Assembly: GCA_023129415.1 (NCBI GenBank)
Contig: JAGMCF010000146.1
Location: forward strand, 1 to 32,174
Reading direction: 5' to 3'
DNA from: Candidatus Cloacimonadota bacterium
GTDB lineage: Bacteria; Cloacimonadota; Cloacimonadia; JGIOTU-2
Length of the DNA: 32,174 bases
The position numbers were made by a program, and so were the translations under genes. Positions within the stretch are counted from its first letter, which is position 1; every line of letters starts with the position of its first letter. The notes below the pieces were generated by a model that saw only the letters and a list, made by a program, of their open reading frames with translations, did not search any database and was not told the origin of the DNA. Positions 4,537 through 26,923 of this stretch are shown here, one piece after another.

Positions 4537-5020
4537 TTCCCATCCGCCAACTGGGGGATTGGAAACATGGCTTTCTTGAAAGGATATGATAATTATGCTT
4601 ATTAATTGTGAATAATAAAAATTGATAATACTGTGAAGAATAGAAACATAGAAACATTAACCATCGATTTCAATCGATGGTTTCCAAACTACTCTTTCAT
4701 TGACTTAAGTCGGTTAATAATGGTTCTTTTCTATCATTTGATAATGTTACCGAATAAATTCGAATGTCTTGTGTGTTTTTTCCCATCCGATAAATCGGAT
4801 GGTTAATATTTGTATTTCAAACAAATTAATTGTTTGCATAAATAAAGTGAGAAATGATAATTGAGTTTACTCTAAAAAGGTCAAAATTAAAACATGTTAG
4901 AAAATCTTTCAAATATTTGGAAACCGATGAATCGGTTGGGAATTTCTATCTTCTTATTAACACCCAACTTAAGTTGGGTGTTAATGAAACCCCAACCTGC
5001 CCATAACCGTTTTAACGGTT
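4537..5020. repeat. Cluster of short palindromes with differing stems
   Basis: ccatccgccaactgggggatt (4541), aaccatcgatttcaatcgatggtt (4659-4682), gacttaagtc (4702-4711), ccatccgataaatcggatgg (4783-4802), aaccgatgaatcggtt (4922-4937), ttaacacccaacttaagttgggtgttaa (4957-4984, perfect), aaccgttttaacggtt (5005-5020). Confidence 0.85.
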
Positions 5021-5066: not shown

Positions 5067-7835
5067 ATGGATAAAGATATAGCAAAACAACAAATCGCCA
5101 AACTGATTGATAAATACAAACGACTTTTAGAAGCTGGTAAAGTCAAGACTTATAACGAAGCTCAAACTCGTAATGAATTTATTGAGCCTTTTTTTCAGTT
5201 TCTGGGCTGGGATATGCGAAACCTTGAATACGAAAACGAGGTAACCACTGAAGAAAATGTTTCAAAGGGAAGAGTGGACCTTGCCTTTAAAATTAACAAC
5301 ATTCCAGTAATGTTTTTAGAAGCAAAGGCTTTAAAGGTTGATCTTGATGAATGGAAATGGGCAGAACAAGCCATCAATTATAGTTGGAACAAAAGTGTAA
5401 CATGGGCAGTGCTTACAGACTTTGAGGGTATCAAGATTTTCAATGCGGAGATACCACCCCAAGGACTTTCTGATAACCTTTTTTTTGAACTTTCCTGGCA
5501 AAATTATTTAGATAGATTTGACCAACTCTGGCTTTTATCAAAAGAAAGTTTTGAGCAAGGATTGCTCTCCAAAGAAGCGGAAAAATGGGGCAAACTCATA
5601 AAAAGAAAGCAAGTTGGTCAAAAACTTTTTGAAGATTTAACGAATTGGCGTGGATGCCTTACCAGACAGTTTAAAAAGAAAAATGAACTTACAGAAGAAG
5701 AATTAGACGAGGGTGTGCAGAGAATCATAGACCGATTAATTTTTATCCGAACTGCCGAAGACCGAAACATAGAACCAAATATTTTGCTTTCTCTTCTAAG
5801 AGGTTGGAAAGGTTCTAAAAAGAAGAAAAGCCTATACAAACAACTTGTAAAAGTCTTCCGCAAATTTGATGGCGGTTACAACTCAAAGCTGTTCGCTCCC
5901 CATTACAGTGAAAAGTGGGAGGCAGATGACAAAGTGTTTGTTGATATTATTCAAGGACTATACAAAACAAAAGATGGCTACCGTTATGATTTTTCAGCTA
6001 TCTCTGCTGATGTGTTGGGTGGCATTTACGAACAGTATTTAGGTTATGTGCTGAAAAAAGTAAGGAAAAAATCAGCTGCAGAGGCAAAGCGAGCAAAACG
6101 AAAATCTCAAGGGATTTTTTACACTCCAAAATATATTGTGGATTTCATCGTTACGCAAACACTGGGTAAAGTTTTACGAAAAACAAAGAAAAAAGACATT
6201 CCGAAAATCAAGGTGCTTGACCCTGCTTGTGGTTCTGGCTCTTTTTTGATTGCTGCTTATGATAAAATTCTGGAAACATTAGAAAAACAAAATCCACAGA
6301 TTAGTTTGTTTACCAAGTTTGATATTTTGAAGGACAATATCTATGGAGTTGACTTAGACGAGCAGGCAGTAGAAATTGCCCAACTTAATTTGCTTTTAAA
6401 AGTCCTTACTCAAAGGGCAAAATTACCAACCTTGCAGCACAATATCCGTATGGGAAACTCTCTGGTATCTGGCAATGCTGAAAGTCTTGAGCCGCATTTT
6501 GGCAATAAATGGCAGAAGCAAAAGCCGTTTAATTGGAATGAGGAATTTAAAGAGGTATTTTTACATACCAAAGTTTCAACAAAAGCAGATGAGCAAGGTG
6601 GCTTTGATGTGGTTATAGGGAATCCGCCATATATTAGGCAAGAATCAATAAAAGAATTAAAACCATATTTTGAAAAAGAATTCACAAATGTTTATTCAGG
6701 TGTTGCTGATCTGTATGTATATTTTTTTGAAAGAGGTATGCAACTTTTGAAAGATAAAGGGTATTTTGGTTTTATTGTTTCAAATAAATTTATTCGCTCT
6801 GGATATGGAAAAAATTTGCGAAAATGTATTCAGGGTAACTTTAAAATTATTCATGTGATCGATAAATTTGAAGAAAAGGTTTTTGTTGAAGCAGCAGTTG
6901 ATCCTTGTATTATTATCTTACAGAAAAATAAACCGAGAAAACATCATCAGATTACATATAATTATAATACCAAAGTTCTGCAAAGTTCTCTTTCTGAAAA
7001 AGGTTGGACATTCGCTGATAGAAAAGTTTTGGAATTGAAGAGGAAGATAGAAAATAAAGGGAAAAAATTGCAGAATTGGGAAGGAGTAGAAATTTATTTT
7101 GGTATCAAATCAGGATTAAACAAGGCTTTCATTATTGATGAAGAAAAAAGAAATGAACTTATCAATCAGGATGAAAGGTCAGCAGAAATTATTAAGCCAC
7201 TTATTAGAGGTCGGGATGTGGGGAGATACAGAATAGAATGGAAGAAAATATATATTATTTTAGCAAAGATTGGAATCGATATATCCCAATATCCTGCAAT
7301 TTATAAGTATCTTTATTTTTACAAGAATCGTTTAACAAAGCGGACAGATTACAAGTCAGTTTTAATGAAGTGGTATAATTTAAGATCATGTACTTATTAT
7401 GATGAGTTTGAAAAGCCTAAAATTATCTATCCAGATATTTCAGAAACAGGTGGATTTTATTGGGATGAAGAGGGTTATTATTTTAATAATACTGTGTATA
7501 TGATTGCTGGGAAAGTAAAAAAGTCTTGGATTGCTATTTTAAATTCCAAATTAATGTCTTGGTATTATAAGCAAATTGCTTCTGGTCTTGGAATTAAAGG
7601 AGTCCGTTATTTTGCACAATTTATGAAAGAACTTCCTATTCCAGAAAACACAGGTCAATTTGAGAAATTTGCTCAGCAAATGCTTGATCTCAATAAAGAG
7701 TTCCAAGCAACTTCAGAAAATACAGATAAGTGGAATCAGTTAAAAGAAAAAATAGAAAGGCTTGACCAGAAAATTGACCAAGAAATTTATAAACTGTACG
7801 GACTCACCAGAGAAGAAATTAAAGTTATTGAGTAG
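5067..7835 (+). CDS. Type IIG-like restriction-modification enzyme (N-terminal nuclease + N6-adenine methyltransferase + TaqI_C-like region)
   Basis: Nuclease-like 'GRVDLAFKINNIPVMFLEAKALK'; MTase motif I 'VLDPACGSGSFLIAAY'; motif IV 'VIGNPPYIRQE'; 'IKPLIRGRDVGRYRI...' as in TaqI_C-type specificity domains. Confidence 0.92.
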   Translation: MDKDIAKQQIAKLIDKYKRLLEAGKVKTYNEAQTRNEFIEPFFQFLGWDMRNLEYENEVTTEENVSKGRVDLAFKINNIPVMFLEAKALKVDLDEWKWAEQAINYSWNKSVTWAVLTDFEGIKIFNAEIPPQGLSDNLFFELSWQNYLDRFDQLWLLSKESFEQGLLSKEAEKWGKLIKRKQVGQKLFEDLTNWRGCLTRQFKKKNELTEEELDEGVQRIIDRLIFIRTAEDRNIEPNILLSLLRGWKGSKKKKSLYKQLVKVFRKFDGGYNSKLFAPHYSEKWEADDKVFVDIIQGLYKTKDGYRYDFSAISADVLGGIYEQYLGYVLKKVRKKSAAEAKRAKRKSQGIFYTPKYIVDFIVTQTLGKVLRKTKKKDIPKIKVLDPACGSGSFLIAAYDKILETLEKQNPQISLFTKFDILKDNIYGVDLDEQAVEIAQLNLLLKVLTQRAKLPTLQHNIRMGNSLVSGNAESLEPHFGNKWQKQKPFNWNEEFKEVFLHTKVSTKADEQGGFDVVIGNPPYIRQESIKELKPYFEKEFTNVYSGVADLYVYFFERGMQLLKDKGYFGFIVSNKFIRSGYGKNLRKCIQGNFKIIHVIDKFEEKVFVEAAVDPCIIILQKNKPRKHHQITYNYNTKVLQSSLSEKGWTFADRKVLELKRKIENKGKKLQNWEGVEIYFGIKSGLNKAFIIDEEKRNELINQDERSAEIIKPLIRGRDVGRYRIEWKKIYIILAKIGIDISQYPAIYKYLYFYKNRLTKRTDYKSVLMKWYNLRSCTYYDEFEKPKIIYPDISETGGFYWDEEGYYFNNTVYMIAGKVKKSWIAILNSKLMSWYYKQIASGLGIKGVRYFAQFMKELPIPENTGQFEKFAQQMLDLNKEFQATSENTDKWNQLKEKIERLDQKIDQEIYKLYGLTREEIKVIE

Positions 7836-7940
7836 TAAAAATTATGATTATGATGGATTGTGAGATACAGTATAATTATAGTAAGTTAGCTCATGAAAAT
7901 AAGCTTCATTTATATTCAAATCAAAAGCTAAAAAGATAAA

Positions 7941-10900
7941 ATGTTAAACGAAGAAGAAGTAAAAAACAAAATTATTATTCCCTGGTTGAAAAAGGATCTT
8001 AGATTTGATGAACATAGTTTAGAGTTTGAAAAATCGTTTAAAATTCATGCAGGTCGAGGAATTTATAAAATAGTAGGTAATAAAGAGAAATTTACAACAA
8101 AAGAAAATATAAGACCTAGATTAGATATTTTAGTAAAAGAAAATAAAGAACACGGAAAAAATCTTTTTGTTATTGAAGTAAAAAGAGAAGGTCACAAAAT
8201 AACTGCCGATGACCGTGAACAAGCAATATCATATGCTCGTTTAACTGATAATATCACACCATTTTCTATAGTAACAAATGGAAAAGACTTTCAGCTTTTT
8301 GATACTATAACCAAAGAAGAGATTAAACCCGATAGCAATTTTGCTCATACTGCAAATTTTGAAGTATCATTAGACAATAAGATATACTGCGAAGCCCTAA
8401 GTTATTTTATTGGATATTCTGAAAATAATTTATCACAATTTTGCAAAAATGAATATGATTTAAATGTCAAAAATCTGAAAGCAATTAAAAAGGAAGATAA
8501 CAAATCTTATTTAGCTGAAGTTTATGAACCCAGCCAGAAGCTTACAAAGATATTTGATAACTTTTTAAAAAGCGATAAAAAAACCTTCGCATTAGTTGGA
8601 AATTCGGGAATGGGAAAAACATGTTGGATTTGTAATACCGCAGAAAATTATATCTCAAAGAAATATCTTGTCTTGTTTTATCGATTTAAGGATATTGAAA
8701 ATGGAATTTTTGAAACAATTGTAAATGACCTAAACTGGTCGGATGATATTTCACCAATATTATCACCACAAGAAGGGATGAAAAGGTTTTTCAAAATTTT
8801 CAAAGATAAAGAAGTTCTGTTTTTTCTTGATGGTCTGGATGAAAAAAATTCTGCAGAGGGTAATAGGATACTGGAAAAATTCTTTAAATATTCACACAAT
8901 AAAAATATAAAATTAATTGTTACTTGCAAAGGATTTTACTGGGATAAATTCTTATTAGATGGAAAAACCCCAACCAGACTTTCAGATGAATTATTTACTA
9001 TTAAAGGTGAAGAAGATAAAAAGGGATTTCTATTAAATGAATTAGAAAAAGAACAATTTCAAAAGTTATTAGATAAATATAGAAAGGTTTATAAATACAA
9101 TGGTTTAATTGAACCAAAACTATTGCAAGAATTCAAGAGAAATCCCTATCTTTTACGAATCACTTTTGAGTATGCATCTCAAAATAATGTAAAGTCCTTA
9201 AATTTTTCAGTAAAAAAATTGTTTCTTTTATATTATGAAAAACTTCTACAACCAATTGAAAATTATGATTTTAAAAAGAATATTTTAAATAAAATAGCTA
9301 AAATTTTTTATGATCAAAACCAAGATTTAATCAATGTTGATTTAGTCTTTAATGAAATAAATCAAGAAATACCAGAAGAATTTTTCAAATGGAATATTCT
9401 AACAAGAAGAACAAATGAAAAATCTAAAACTTTAATAGAATTTTATTTTAGTAAATTAAGAGATTTTATAATTGCTTTTAAAGTATTAAAATTAGATTCA
9501 AAGGATAAAGAATACTTTGAAAATTTCAAGATAGAAAATAAAACAAATGTTCAACTTGAAGTTATAAATTCTTATTACTTAGTTGCTGACGAGAAACATA
9601 AACGTATGCTTGATAAAAAAGTATATTACAAAGCATATAATTTTTTAACAAATCGAGAAAAAATCATTAATGAACATTTCTCTACTTTCAAGAAAGCATT
9701 TAATCCTTTCACTAATAAAGAAGTAGGGATTTATTGTGATGTGGACTTAATTAATGATAGAATTAAATCTTATGCTTTTAGAGAAATTGAGGATGATGAT
9801 GAAAAGGTATTGTTAAATCCTTCTTCCAGTCATGGAGATTTTGGTTATTTTGCAAAGAATTATAATTTCTCATCTATGAGCTACACTTACGATTTAGAAA
9901 AAAAGGATATTTGGGAAGATATTGAAAAAGAACTTTTTGGAATTATAGAAGGACTTCAAGCACAACGATTTGATAGAAGGTTTGATTTAAGTAAGAACAA
10001 ATACAAATTACAAGAAAGAATCCTTTCATTAATCACTAAAAGCTATAAAGATTATTTTAACATAAAGAATATTAGACCCTGTTCTGAGTATTTGCCCATC
10101 AAAATAAAAGATATAAAAAGAGCAGTTTATGAGAAAATTATAGCTGAAAAACTAATGAATGAATATTTAAAAATCAACAAGAATGACCATCCTTTAGAAT
10201 TAAGTTTTTGGGACATACGAAAAGCTATAAAAGAAGGAACAATTTATGAAGTATTTGAAAATTTAGATATTAATCTTGAATCAGAAATCAAAAGAATTAG
10301 TAACAATCCTGATTTGCTAAAAAAATACTTAAAAGATATTAATAATGAAGATTCAACAATTCTTGAAGATATAAATAGTTTAGGAAAATTAGGAATTCAA
10401 AAAATAGATAATACTGTCTTTCCAGATTGGAATGCAAAAAACTATAATAAAAGATTCTTATTTGATTATTTGGATAAATCTGATTTAAAGCAAAATATTG
10501 AAAATCTTTATAAAATATATCTTGATGAATACAAAATTTTTATTGAGCATAATTTCTTATCAATTTGCCAGGACTTTCCATTTTATTCATCACTTCCTTT
10601 AAAAGTTCAAATCATTGTTGATTTTGAGAAACTAGATCGTAACAATGCAACAGTAATAACATATAAAAATAACGAAAATGATAATAATTCAGTTGAAATT
10701 ATAAACGCAAAGGGCATTCCAAGAGAAGAAAAAAGTTCACCCTTCAGTTATGAAAATGTTAAACACAGTCCTAATTTCATTGATTACTGTACATACGGGA
10801 GTTTAGGAGGGTTGTTTAATAAATATAAAAATGATGTTCTTTCCCCTGATATTCCATGGCATATGGATATTTTGCAAAGATTTATCTATGGTCATTTAAA

Positions 10901-11465
10901 AGATGATTTAGAAGCTTATTTTAAAAAAAATGAGGAAGATAGAATTAAATCTTTTAAATATAATGAAAATGAACTAAGTAAATTAGACCTTCTTTTGTTT
11001 AATACAATTTGCCAAATAGCAATAGAGAAAAATGCTTTGATGATAAATTATGAAGATGCAATATATTATTCTAAAAAATTAGGTTTGTCAAATAGCGAAA
11101 TTTCTAAATCAATAGATATTTTAGAAGAAAGAATATATATTACAAGCTTTACTAAGAACATTTTAGGTGATATTTTTCATTTTTATTTAAACCCTTATGC
11201 ACTTGATAATTATGCAAAATTACATATAAAAAATTACGATAAACTAAAAAAAGATGTGGTTTATTATATTGTTGATAATTATGAAGATAAAGCAAAACTT
11301 AATAGCGATGACATAGCAAATAAATTATCCACCCAACGAGTAATTGTAAATCTCATTCTTGACAAGCTTGAAGATAAAAATTTAATTAAAAGGCATACTT
11401 CAATTCTTAATGGATATACATCAATTTATTATGTATCAGATGATATAAAAAAACTGAAACATTGA
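7941..11465 (+). CDS. HsdR_N/PD-(D/E)XK-like nuclease fused to NACHT/STAND-like NTPase; putative defence protein
   Basis: N-terminus 'RPRLDILVKENKEHGKNLFVIEVKREG'; Walker A 'LVGNSGMGKTCW'; Walker B 'VLFFLDGLDEKNS'; long C-terminal region ending in a winged-helix-like segment. Confidence 0.82.
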   Translation: MLNEEEVKNKIIIPWLKKDLRFDEHSLEFEKSFKIHAGRGIYKIVGNKEKFTTKENIRPRLDILVKENKEHGKNLFVIEVKREGHKITADDREQAISYARLTDNITPFSIVTNGKDFQLFDTITKEEIKPDSNFAHTANFEVSLDNKIYCEALSYFIGYSENNLSQFCKNEYDLNVKNLKAIKKEDNKSYLAEVYEPSQKLTKIFDNFLKSDKKTFALVGNSGMGKTCWICNTAENYISKKYLVLFYRFKDIENGIFETIVNDLNWSDDISPILSPQEGMKRFFKIFKDKEVLFFLDGLDEKNSAEGNRILEKFFKYSHNKNIKLIVTCKGFYWDKFLLDGKTPTRLSDELFTIKGEEDKKGFLLNELEKEQFQKLLDKYRKVYKYNGLIEPKLLQEFKRNPYLLRITFEYASQNNVKSLNFSVKKLFLLYYEKLLQPIENYDFKKNILNKIAKIFYDQNQDLINVDLVFNEINQEIPEEFFKWNILTRRTNEKSKTLIEFYFSKLRDFIIAFKVLKLDSKDKEYFENFKIENKTNVQLEVINSYYLVADEKHKRMLDKKVYYKAYNFLTNREKIINEHFSTFKKAFNPFTNKEVGIYCDVDLINDRIKSYAFREIEDDDEKVLLNPSSSHGDFGYFAKNYNFSSMSYTYDLEKKDIWEDIEKELFGIIEGLQAQRFDRRFDLSKNKYKLQERILSLITKSYKDYFNIKNIRPCSEYLPIKIKDIKRAVYEKIIAEKLMNEYLKINKNDHPLELSFWDIRKAIKEGTIYEVFENLDINLESEIKRISNNPDLLKKYLKDINNEDSTILEDINSLGKLGIQKIDNTVFPDWNAKNYNKRFLFDYLDKSDLKQNIENLYKIYLDEYKIFIEHNFLSICQDFPFYSSLPLKVQIIVDFEKLDRNNATVITYKNNENDNNSVEIINAKGIPREEKSSPFSYENVKHSPNFIDYCTYGSLGGLFNKYKNDVLSPDIPWHMDILQRFIYGHLKDDLEAYFKKNEEDRIKSFKYNENELSKLDLLLFNTICQIAIEKNALMINYEDAIYYSKKLGLSNSEISKSIDILEERIYITSFTKNILGDIFHFYLNPYALDNYAKLHIKNYDKLKKDVVYYIVDNYEDKAKLNSDDIANKLSTQRVIVNLILDKLEDKNLIKRHTSILNGYTSIYYVSDDIKKLKH

Positions 11466-23329: not shown

Positions 23330-24385
23330 ATGAGTAAGAAAAAGAAAGCAAATATAAGTTCTGAGTTACAATTATTCTCAAACTTTGTAATTTTCCAAAC
23401 CCAAAACGGCAAAGTAAATATTGATGTATTTTTTAAGGATGAAACGCTTTGGCTTACTCAAAAATTAATTGCCGAACTGTTTGAAAAAGGCAGAACTACA
23501 ATTACAGAGCATCTTAAGAACATATTTTCAGAAGGTGAACTTGATGAATATTCAGTATGTCGGTATTTCCGACATACCACAAAGCACGGTGCTATTAAAG
23601 GTAAAACACAAGAAAAAGAAGTTAAATATTACAATCTAAAAACTATTACTGCTGTAGGATATCGTGTAAATTCGCACAGAGCAACAGAGTTCAGAAAATG
23701 GGCAACAGAAATTCTGCACGAATATATCATCAAAGGTTTTGCATTGGATGATGAAAGGCTCAAACAGATAAAACACTTTGGTATAGATTACTTTGAAGAA
23801 ATGCTTGAACGAGTTAGAGAAATCCGTTTAAGTGAGAGAAGATTGTATCAGAAAATAACAGATATTTATGCACTTTCTGCCGACTACGATACCAAAGCCG
23901 AAATAACAAAACATTTCTTTGCAACTGTTCAAAACAAACTGCATTGGGCAATAATAGGCAAAACTGCTTCCGAAATTATCTACACAGAAGCTGATGCTAA
24001 AAAAGTATTTATGGGACTCAAAACTTGGAAACAAACTCCCGAAGGGAAAATATTAAAAAGCTATGTAAGTATTGCCAAAAACTATTTAAACGAAGAACAT
24101 ATTAAAAACTTAGAACGTATTGTAACTGCTTATCTTGATTTGGCAGAAAGCAGAGCAATGAATAGAAAAGTAATGAATATGAAAGACTGGCAAGAGTTTC
24201 TTATAAAATTTTTAGAACTTTCCGACTCTCCAATACTTACAAACCTTGGTAAAATTTCGATGTTAGAAGCAAGACTTAAAGCTGAGAGCGAATATGAAAA
24301 ATATAGAGTTACTCAAGATAAGAATTATATTTCTGATTTTGATAGAGAAATTAAGAAGCTATTATCAAAAGAGAATAATGAATGA
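23330..24385 (+). CDS. RhuM family virulence-type protein
   Basis: VNIDVFFKDETLWLTQKLIAELFEKGRTTITEHLKNIF...SVCRYFRHT...YYNLKTITAVGYRVNSHRATEFRKWATEILHEYIIKGFALDDERLK. Confidence 0.93.
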   Translation: MSKKKKANISSELQLFSNFVIFQTQNGKVNIDVFFKDETLWLTQKLIAELFEKGRTTITEHLKNIFSEGELDEYSVCRYFRHTTKHGAIKGKTQEKEVKYYNLKTITAVGYRVNSHRATEFRKWATEILHEYIIKGFALDDERLKQIKHFGIDYFEEMLERVREIRLSERRLYQKITDIYALSADYDTKAEITKHFFATVQNKLHWAIIGKTASEIIYTEADAKKVFMGLKTWKQTPEGKILKSYVSIAKNYLNEEHIKNLERIVTAYLDLAESRAMNRKVMNMKDWQEFLIKFLELSDSPILTNLGKISMLEARLKAESEYEKYRVTQDKNYISDFDREIKKLLSKENNE

Positions 24386-25667: not shown

Positions 25668-26923
25668 ATGCAAACACAAGGTAAAACCATTTTTAACCGT
25701 CTTCCGGGATTAAAAATTCGAACTGTGATTCTGATCATCTTCCTGTTCCTGCTGATACTGATAGGACTTTTTTCACTACTTAAAATCTCTCAGCTGAATC
25801 AGAGTACTGTAGAGACTTCTAAACTGGCGAAAGATTTTCAATCAGCACTTGATGCCTTTCAAAAGGAGTATGGCTTCCCTGGAGCAACAGCTGCTTTTGT
25901 GTTACAGGACGGTACATCCGGTGTTGCCGCAACCGGGGTTGCTGATGTAGAAGCCGGAACACCTATGACGGCAGAGTCGCGCATGCTTTCAGCAAGTATT
26001 GGAAAAACCTTTGTTGGGGCTACAGCGGTAGCACTTGCGCGCGAGGGCGTACTGGATCTTGATATCCCTGTGTCGCGATGGCTCGGAGACCGTCGGTGGT
26101 TTTCCCGGTTGCCTAATTACGATGTAATCACTTTACGCCACCTTTTGACCCACAGTTCTGGATTGCCGGACCATGTGCATCTGGAGAGCTTTGCCACCGA
26201 GGTCTCTCACAAATGGCGCGAGAAAGACAATCCATTTCCACCTGAAGCACTGATCGAATTTGTTCTGGACCTTACACCCCTTTTCGAGGTTGGCAAGGAT
26301 TGGGCCTACACAGACACTGGGTACATACTGATCGGGCTTGTGATTGAAAAAGCCACTGGAAGAAGTTACTACAATGAGATCAAGGAGCGTTTCCTGATAC
26401 CTCTCGATCTGACATTGACCACCCCGGCTGACCGCCGTTTTCTGCCGGGGCTCACTGCTGGATACATGGCGGCAGATAACGATTTTGGGTTTCCCCGAAA
26501 AACTACCGCAGCAGATGGTGAGATGGTGTGGCATCCTGGTTTCGAATGGACTGGCGGAGGTCTGGTGAGTAATTCACTCGATCTAGCTCGCTGGGGGTCG
26601 GCGCTTTTCGGGGGGGGGATGCGATGTCTGACTCCTATCTGGACGAGATTTTGAATTCTATCCCAATTAACCCAGATACGGACGACATCCTATATGGAGC
26701 AGGGGTTGCGGTTTATCGCACAGGCCCATTTGGCCCGGTTTGCGGTCATGGCGGATGGATACCAGGGTACAGTTCCAGCCTTCGCTACTACCCAGACTAT
26801 AGGATCGCCATTGCTTTCCAGATCAACACGGATATTGGCATAGTGGATGACACAACACCAGTGATGCGTGAAATGGAAGCGCGTCTGGCAGAGATTGTCA
26901 TATCCTCTACTCGTGGCTTATGA
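25668..26923 (+). pseudogene. Serine hydrolase (class C beta-lactamase/DD-peptidase family), split by frameshift at a G9 tract
   Basis: SIGK (SxxK), YTDTGY, HLLTHSSGLPDH; ORF 25668-26654 leaves frame at G9 (26610-26618) and homologous coding continues in 26624-26923 (...GHGGWIPGYSSSLRYYPDYRIAIAFQIN). Confidence 0.85.

Follow-up and report, generated by a model that had tools for sequence, protein, structure and literature searches.

The subject of this analysis is a stretch of 32,174 bp from a Candidatus Cloacimonadota genome of 3.46 Mb (contig JAGMCF010000146.1; the whole stretch is termed the window in the following), which carries on its + strand a restriction-modification (RM) gene (5067..7835, 922 aa) and, behind an intergenic gap of 105 bp (7836..7940), a gene encoding a nuclease-NACHT protein of the STAND type (7941..11465, 1174 aa). 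Judged from sequence, these are probably two independent defence genes located side by side, namely a type IIG RM enzyme and a stand-alone immune receptor, the latter probably acting abortively. The immune-receptor interpretation is based on nuclease and NACHT motifs that are intact and invariant, an exchange of the effector within the family, recombination of the nucleoside triphosphatase (NTPase) module and the location of one relative in a putative defence island. At rest, such a receptor would be autoinhibited with a bound nucleotide. Perception of a phage-derived or infection-caused signal by the C-terminal region (approximately residues 520-1174), which ends in tandem winged helices, would then trigger oligomerisation of the NACHT module and gather the N-terminal PD-(D/E)XK nucleases, which in turn may degrade phage DNA, host DNA or both. 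This would halt the infection, with the cell itself probably being sacrificed.

Effector and NTPase modules of the STAND protein

A first-pass annotation of this DNA had proposed an HsdR_N-like nuclease at the N-terminus of the STAND protein. This was borne out by an HSDR_N_2 match above the cut-off (Pfam, 3e-7) at residues 53-124 (8097..8312, + strand), i.e., a PD-(D/E)XK nuclease effector with the nuclease residues D62, E79-V-K81 and Q94xxxY98. The same domain is matched by all four nuclease-bearing members of a family found in five of the 125 Cloacimonadota genomes that constitute the phylum sample (the window genome, G101, G029, G006 and G085), the G101 protein (JAGLWO010000631.1) being the closest relative of the window protein with 74% identity. 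Comparison of the family profile with the PDB yielded only a weak match to the endonuclease region of BpuSI (E 0.027).

The nuclease is followed on the same strand by a P-loop NTPase of the NACHT type (residues 215-330, 8583..8930), recognised by its motifs and by a sub-threshold Pfam NACHT match of 2.5e-4 (3.1e-5 in another scan). The Walker A motif GNSGMGKT (residues 220-227, 8598-8621) and the Walker B/DGLDE motif LFFLDGLDE (residues 293-301, 8817-8843), both noticed in the first pass, are exactly placed within this region. The Mg-binding Asp of the latter is followed by a small residue and then by acidic residues, as in NACHT/STAND proteins, and behind the NTPase lies a helical/winged region (9141..9482) with the conserved stretches NPYLLRI (residues 401-407) and FYFSKLRDFIIAFK (residues 501-514). 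D62, E79, K81, Q94, Y98, the GKT of Walker A and DGLDE are invariant among the four nuclease-bearing relatives, and the NTPase motifs remain so across all five, including the protease-bearing protein of G085. On these features, the predicted assignment of the 1174-aa protein to the STAND class is well supported; its clade within this class is uncertain, because the Pfam NACHT match stays under the cut-off in two of the four nuclease-bearing members.

The strongest evidence for a STAND immune receptor is provided by G085. The alignment of its protein with the family starts at approximately residue 165 of the window protein and extends almost to the C-terminal end. The first ~230 residues of the G085 protein, by contrast, match Pfam Trypsin (6e-9) and constitute a trypsin-like protease, the His in TAAH and the Ser in GSG being seen by eye, and directly upstream of the gene resides a gene for a metallo-beta-lactamase (MBL)-fold hydrolase (PADLOC LmuA 1e-51, Avs1a 3e-21). 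This nuclease-protease pair, in which the protease activates the pro-nuclease, is described as a recurrent acquisition of several defence systems, namely AVAST, Lamassu, Hachiman and DRT (PMC12799240). In the family, one receptor core is combined with two alternative weapons, and a swap of nuclease for protease is what a tripartite STAND receptor would lead one to expect. The family constitutes a clean natural case of effector exchange on one receptor core, DNase versus protease plus MBL pro-nuclease, and the MBL-protease pair would be in use by one more STAND lineage.

Moreover, the modules recombine, since a segment spanning the linker behind the nuclease and the NTPase (8403..9134, + strand) shares 98.2% DNA identity with G101, whereas the remainder of the gene reaches 76.7%. 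The score of this segment, 131, was reached in none of 2000 codon shuffles, the largest value being 23, and synonymous identity between window and G101 is close to 1.0 inside the segment versus mostly 0.5-0.9 outside. These values point to an NTPase module that alone was recently transferred between lineages, while the nuclease and sensor ends differ. Together with the effector exchange, this transfer renders the sensor-effector modularity of bacterial NLR-like proteins testable.

Further support comes from the G029 locus (L019, G029:C143:28000-45697), where the nuclease-STAND gene is embedded in a dense putative defence island comprising an AbiLi/AriA-like ATPase with an RloB-like partner, a ParA-like ATPase, an HD-domain-like protein and two NB-ARC-TPR-like proteins.

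The C-terminal sensor region

The first-pass annotation had described a very long C-terminal sensor region without recognised repeats. Its ~800 residues contain no curated domain save a sub-threshold MarR/winged helix-turn-helix match at residues 1120-1152 (9e-5). The region is not devoid of features throughout, as residues 1000-1174 (10938..11462, + strand) are modelled by AlphaFold2 as tandem winged-helix domains, i.e., two successive three-helix-plus-wing units (predicted local distance difference test score, pLDDT, 75.8; predicted template modelling score, pTM, 0.72). In Foldseek, the best PDB matches of this part are ScpB, which likewise possesses tandem winged helices, and MarR-type regulators; overall TM-scores are low, and therefore the fold class alone is claimed. 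The first-pass description of the sensor as unassigned was supported, as nothing in PADLOC, NCBIfam or solved structures accounts for it: the scan of the window protein against PADLOC at E<=1 returned no Avs model, the Avs types of this library past Avs1a not having been checked. Within the gene, a search for internal DNA repeats returned nothing beyond short AT-rich matches of the chance type.

A second conserved part of the sensor is a patch at approximately residues 790-898 (10308..10634, + strand; ...FPDW...EYKIFIE.NF...FPFY), for which G501 and G394 each encode a protein with a weak match but no further resemblance (hhalign probability 56% and 90%; search matches 1.5e-4 and 2.4e-4, respectively). 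As sensor-patch relatives, these two proteins are suggestive only. The G501 protein (G501:C30, L032:922-2652) is an unassigned protein of 576 aa whose N-terminus resembles a nuclease by eye; 61 bp upstream of it lies a type IIG RM gene.

Several points weigh against an immune receptor. Both the NACHT and the MarR match lie under the curated cut-offs. In addition, an AlphaFold2 model of the full-length window protein, made with one relative, reached a pLDDT of 32 and was discarded, which leaves no usable model of the sensor fold or of the domain boundaries between approximately residues 520 and 1000. Finally, the other genes around the window pair encode DUF7689, TPR and RND efflux proteins, and no defence island is evident there.

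A different interpretation of the protein is that of a modification-dependent, type IV-like restriction enzyme in which the NTPase would drive DNA-bound assembly and the winged helices would recognise modified phage DNA. Such an enzyme would act on DNA directly instead of responding to a phage protein as a receptor. The presence of a PD-(D/E)XK nuclease, an NTPase and winged helices on one chain is in line with this, as is the relationship of the N-terminus to restriction enzymes (BpuSI). The NTPase, however, carries the NACHT DGLDE motif instead of a McrB-like one, the sensor is far larger than known modification readers, and the protease found in G085 would be pointless if the protein's role were to cleave the DNA to which it is bound. 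Such an enzyme is hence considered unlikely.

Relation to the neighbouring RM gene

The first gene was taken by the first-pass annotation for type IIG-like RM, and Pfam, PADLOC and the motifs all agree. Its product combines on one polypeptide an HSDR_N-like nuclease (GRVDLAF.../FLEAKAL, 5268-5333), an N6-adenine methyltransferase with motif I (DPACGSGSF, 6219-6245) and NPPY (6621-6632), and a TaqI_C-like specificity domain (residues 710-858), all on the + strand. The corresponding matches are Eco57I (4e-45), N6_Mtase (1e-27), TaqI_C (6e-18) and HSDR_N (9e-7) in Pfam and REase_MTase_IIG (2e-127) in PADLOC, and its PDB relatives are BseCI and other adenine methylases. The 922-aa protein has the same three parts on one chain as type IIG enzymes of the Eco57I/BpuSI kind and is an ordinary member of this group, predicted to methylate and to cut DNA.

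Although coordinates, lengths, orientation and the 105-bp gap agree with the first-pass annotation, its proposal that the two genes form a pair was not sustained. An RM gene is found directly upstream of the STAND gene in two of the five Cloacimonadota loci, those of the window and G006, and the other three lack it: upstream of the STAND gene are a LysE-like gene (by eye) in G101, an HD-domain-like gene in G029 and the MBL gene in G085. The type IIG gene of G006 has the same orientation as the STAND gene and precedes it by 103 bp, its product is approximately 26% identical to the window enzyme, and the two gaps display no obvious similarity by eye. The genes of the window pair differ in guanine-plus-cytosine (GC) content as well (33.8% for RM, 25.1% for STAND). 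A conserved RM-STAND operon or two-gene system was rejected on the grounds of two loci out of five and RM enzymes that are not orthologous. An association with RM genes, the absence of which the first-pass annotation had named as refuting its proposal, is accordingly largely missing, and four Proteobacterial neighbourhoods inspected contained no annotated RM methyltransferase nearby; yet adjacency in two of five loci exceeds random placement, because each genome has just 4 to 11 matches of the Eco57I type, by rough estimate a fraction of a percent of its genes. Clustering of defence genes explains this adjacency without a shared mechanism.

Nevertheless, both genes might act as one unit, in which the RM enzyme is under surveillance by the STAND protein, which fires upon phage inhibition of restriction, or in which the winged helices read the RM methylation to distinguish self from foreign. 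The 105-bp same-strand gap of the window, where no + strand terminator-like site was found, would suit such a unit, as would the type IIG genes that precede the STAND gene of G006 and, with the C-terminus of its product encoded 61 bp upstream, the G501 protein with the weak sensor patch. Furthermore, one study states that winged-helix domains of type IV enzymes can read N6-methyladenine (PMC11037411). On the contrary, no RM gene resides beside the STAND gene in G101, G029 and G085, the two adjacent RM enzymes share the low identity given above, the GC of the two window genes differs, and homologues of the window RM enzyme occur elsewhere in the same genome without a STAND gene. These adjoin different genes, the nearest paralogue found being 31% identical. 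The gap contains one weak promoter-like match, which is at chance level. A single unit is regarded as improbable. More improbable still is the full form of such coupling, an NLR-like receptor that can be armed with either a nuclease or a protease and whose tandem winged helices would read the N6-methylation set by the neighbouring RM enzyme or guard this enzyme against phage anti-restriction.

STAND proteins include transcription regulators and the C-terminal winged helices resemble MarR, but a regulatory or housekeeping NTPase with a degenerate nuclease-like domain is very hard to reconcile with catalytic residues that are invariant in the nuclease members, the swap to protease plus MBL nuclease in G085 and a patchy, low-GC gene.

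Distribution, known systems and further observations

With regard to two independent genes including a stand-alone receptor, the low GC of the STAND gene (surroundings ~31-37%) and its patchy presence among the sampled genomes fit horizontal transfer. No full-length relative was found in approximately 520 further genomes sampled across bacteria, and neither a scan of viral contigs nor tblastn against phages gave any relative. A sixth match within the phylum, in G117, is an unrelated NACHT protein on inspection; this match was discarded together with those in G180, G287, G396, G438 and G458, which on inspection amount to no more than a NACHT protein unrelated to the family or HSDR_N-type domains occurring in isolation, the latter mostly in methylase-like proteins. 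A further match, in G304, is weak. The STAND gene of G006 is split across two contigs with a transposase beside the break and therefore looks interrupted by an insertion sequence. The RM enzyme upstream of it (G006:C8, L020:5548-9207) contains an in-frame Y1 transposase domain of the REP-type TnpA (Pfam Y1_Tnp, 1e-5) at residues 614-673, between methyltransferase motif I and NPPY.

More distant relatives exist in Proteobacteria as HsdR_N/P-loop proteins of 780-806 aa, for instance in E. coli (WP_000839828.1, L043), Agrobacterium (WP_040132279.1, L044) and Sinorhizobium (pSU277_2, L030). Homology of nuclease and P-loop was detected with the Sinorhizobium protein (hhalign probability 97.4%, profile positions 29-302), but the Proteobacterial proteins are approximately 370 residues shorter, lack the Cloacimonadota sensor and have a Walker B that is not of the DGLDE form. 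They are widespread, yet annotated just as HsdR N-terminal domain proteins, restriction-like. One such protein is present in 235 of the 5426 complete genomes of E. coli. Relatives on plasmids and in E. coli adjoin abortive-infection, toxin or prophage-type genes, and those carried on Ti-type plasmids of Agrobacterium and on plasmids of Rhizobium have AbiEii and further genes of a defence-like kind nearby. The closest nuclease-NTPase found outside Cloacimonadota is a truncated copy on a Massilia plasmid (29%).

The overall plan of the window protein is already known. In clade 6 of the bacterial NACHT proteins, bNACHT25 and bNACHT32 are PD-(D/E)XK-NACHT proteins whose nuclease activity is needed for defence (PMC12169576), and the window protein has the same single-gene arrangement of N-terminal PD-(D/E)XK DNase (here HSDR_N_2), central NACHT and C-terminal sensor. 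What differs, going by descriptions, is the larger sensor with its tandem winged-helix end, where those proteins carry an NCH1 C-terminal domain, the HSDR_N_2 kind of nuclease and the fact that members of the family can differ in their effector; a scan of Pfam and NCBIfam at E<=1 gave no NCH1 match in the window protein, the presence of an NCH1 model in these libraries being unverified. The tripartite STAND plan is common to AVAST as well, in particular Avs1, with which G085 shares the Avs1a-like MBL nuclease and trypsin-like protease. The window protein, however, has no PADLOC Avs match, no recognised repeat sensor and a nuclease effector in place of a protease. The AVAST type 1 set of MBL hydrolase, trypsin-like protease and STAND protein is not found beside the window gene, while G085 has the MBL gene plus a protease-STAND fusion. 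The family adds STAND proteins with an unassigned sensor ending in tandem winged helices from a candidate phylum little studied for defence.

Elsewhere in the window, a RhuM-family gene 12 kb downstream (23330-24385; Pfam Virulence_RhuM 4e-105, PADLOC candidate PDC-S05 1e-137) is a candidate for phage defence. A protein of the serine beta-lactamase fold appears to be encoded at 25668-26923 by two overlapping open reading frames in different frames (PF00144 profile positions 1-238 and 263-318), a split that is probably a frameshift. Upstream of the RM gene, perfect and near-perfect palindromes are clustered at 4648-4985, among them ACACCCAACTTAAGTTGGGTGT at 4960-4981, which occurs once more in the genome and may be REP-like or a terminator.

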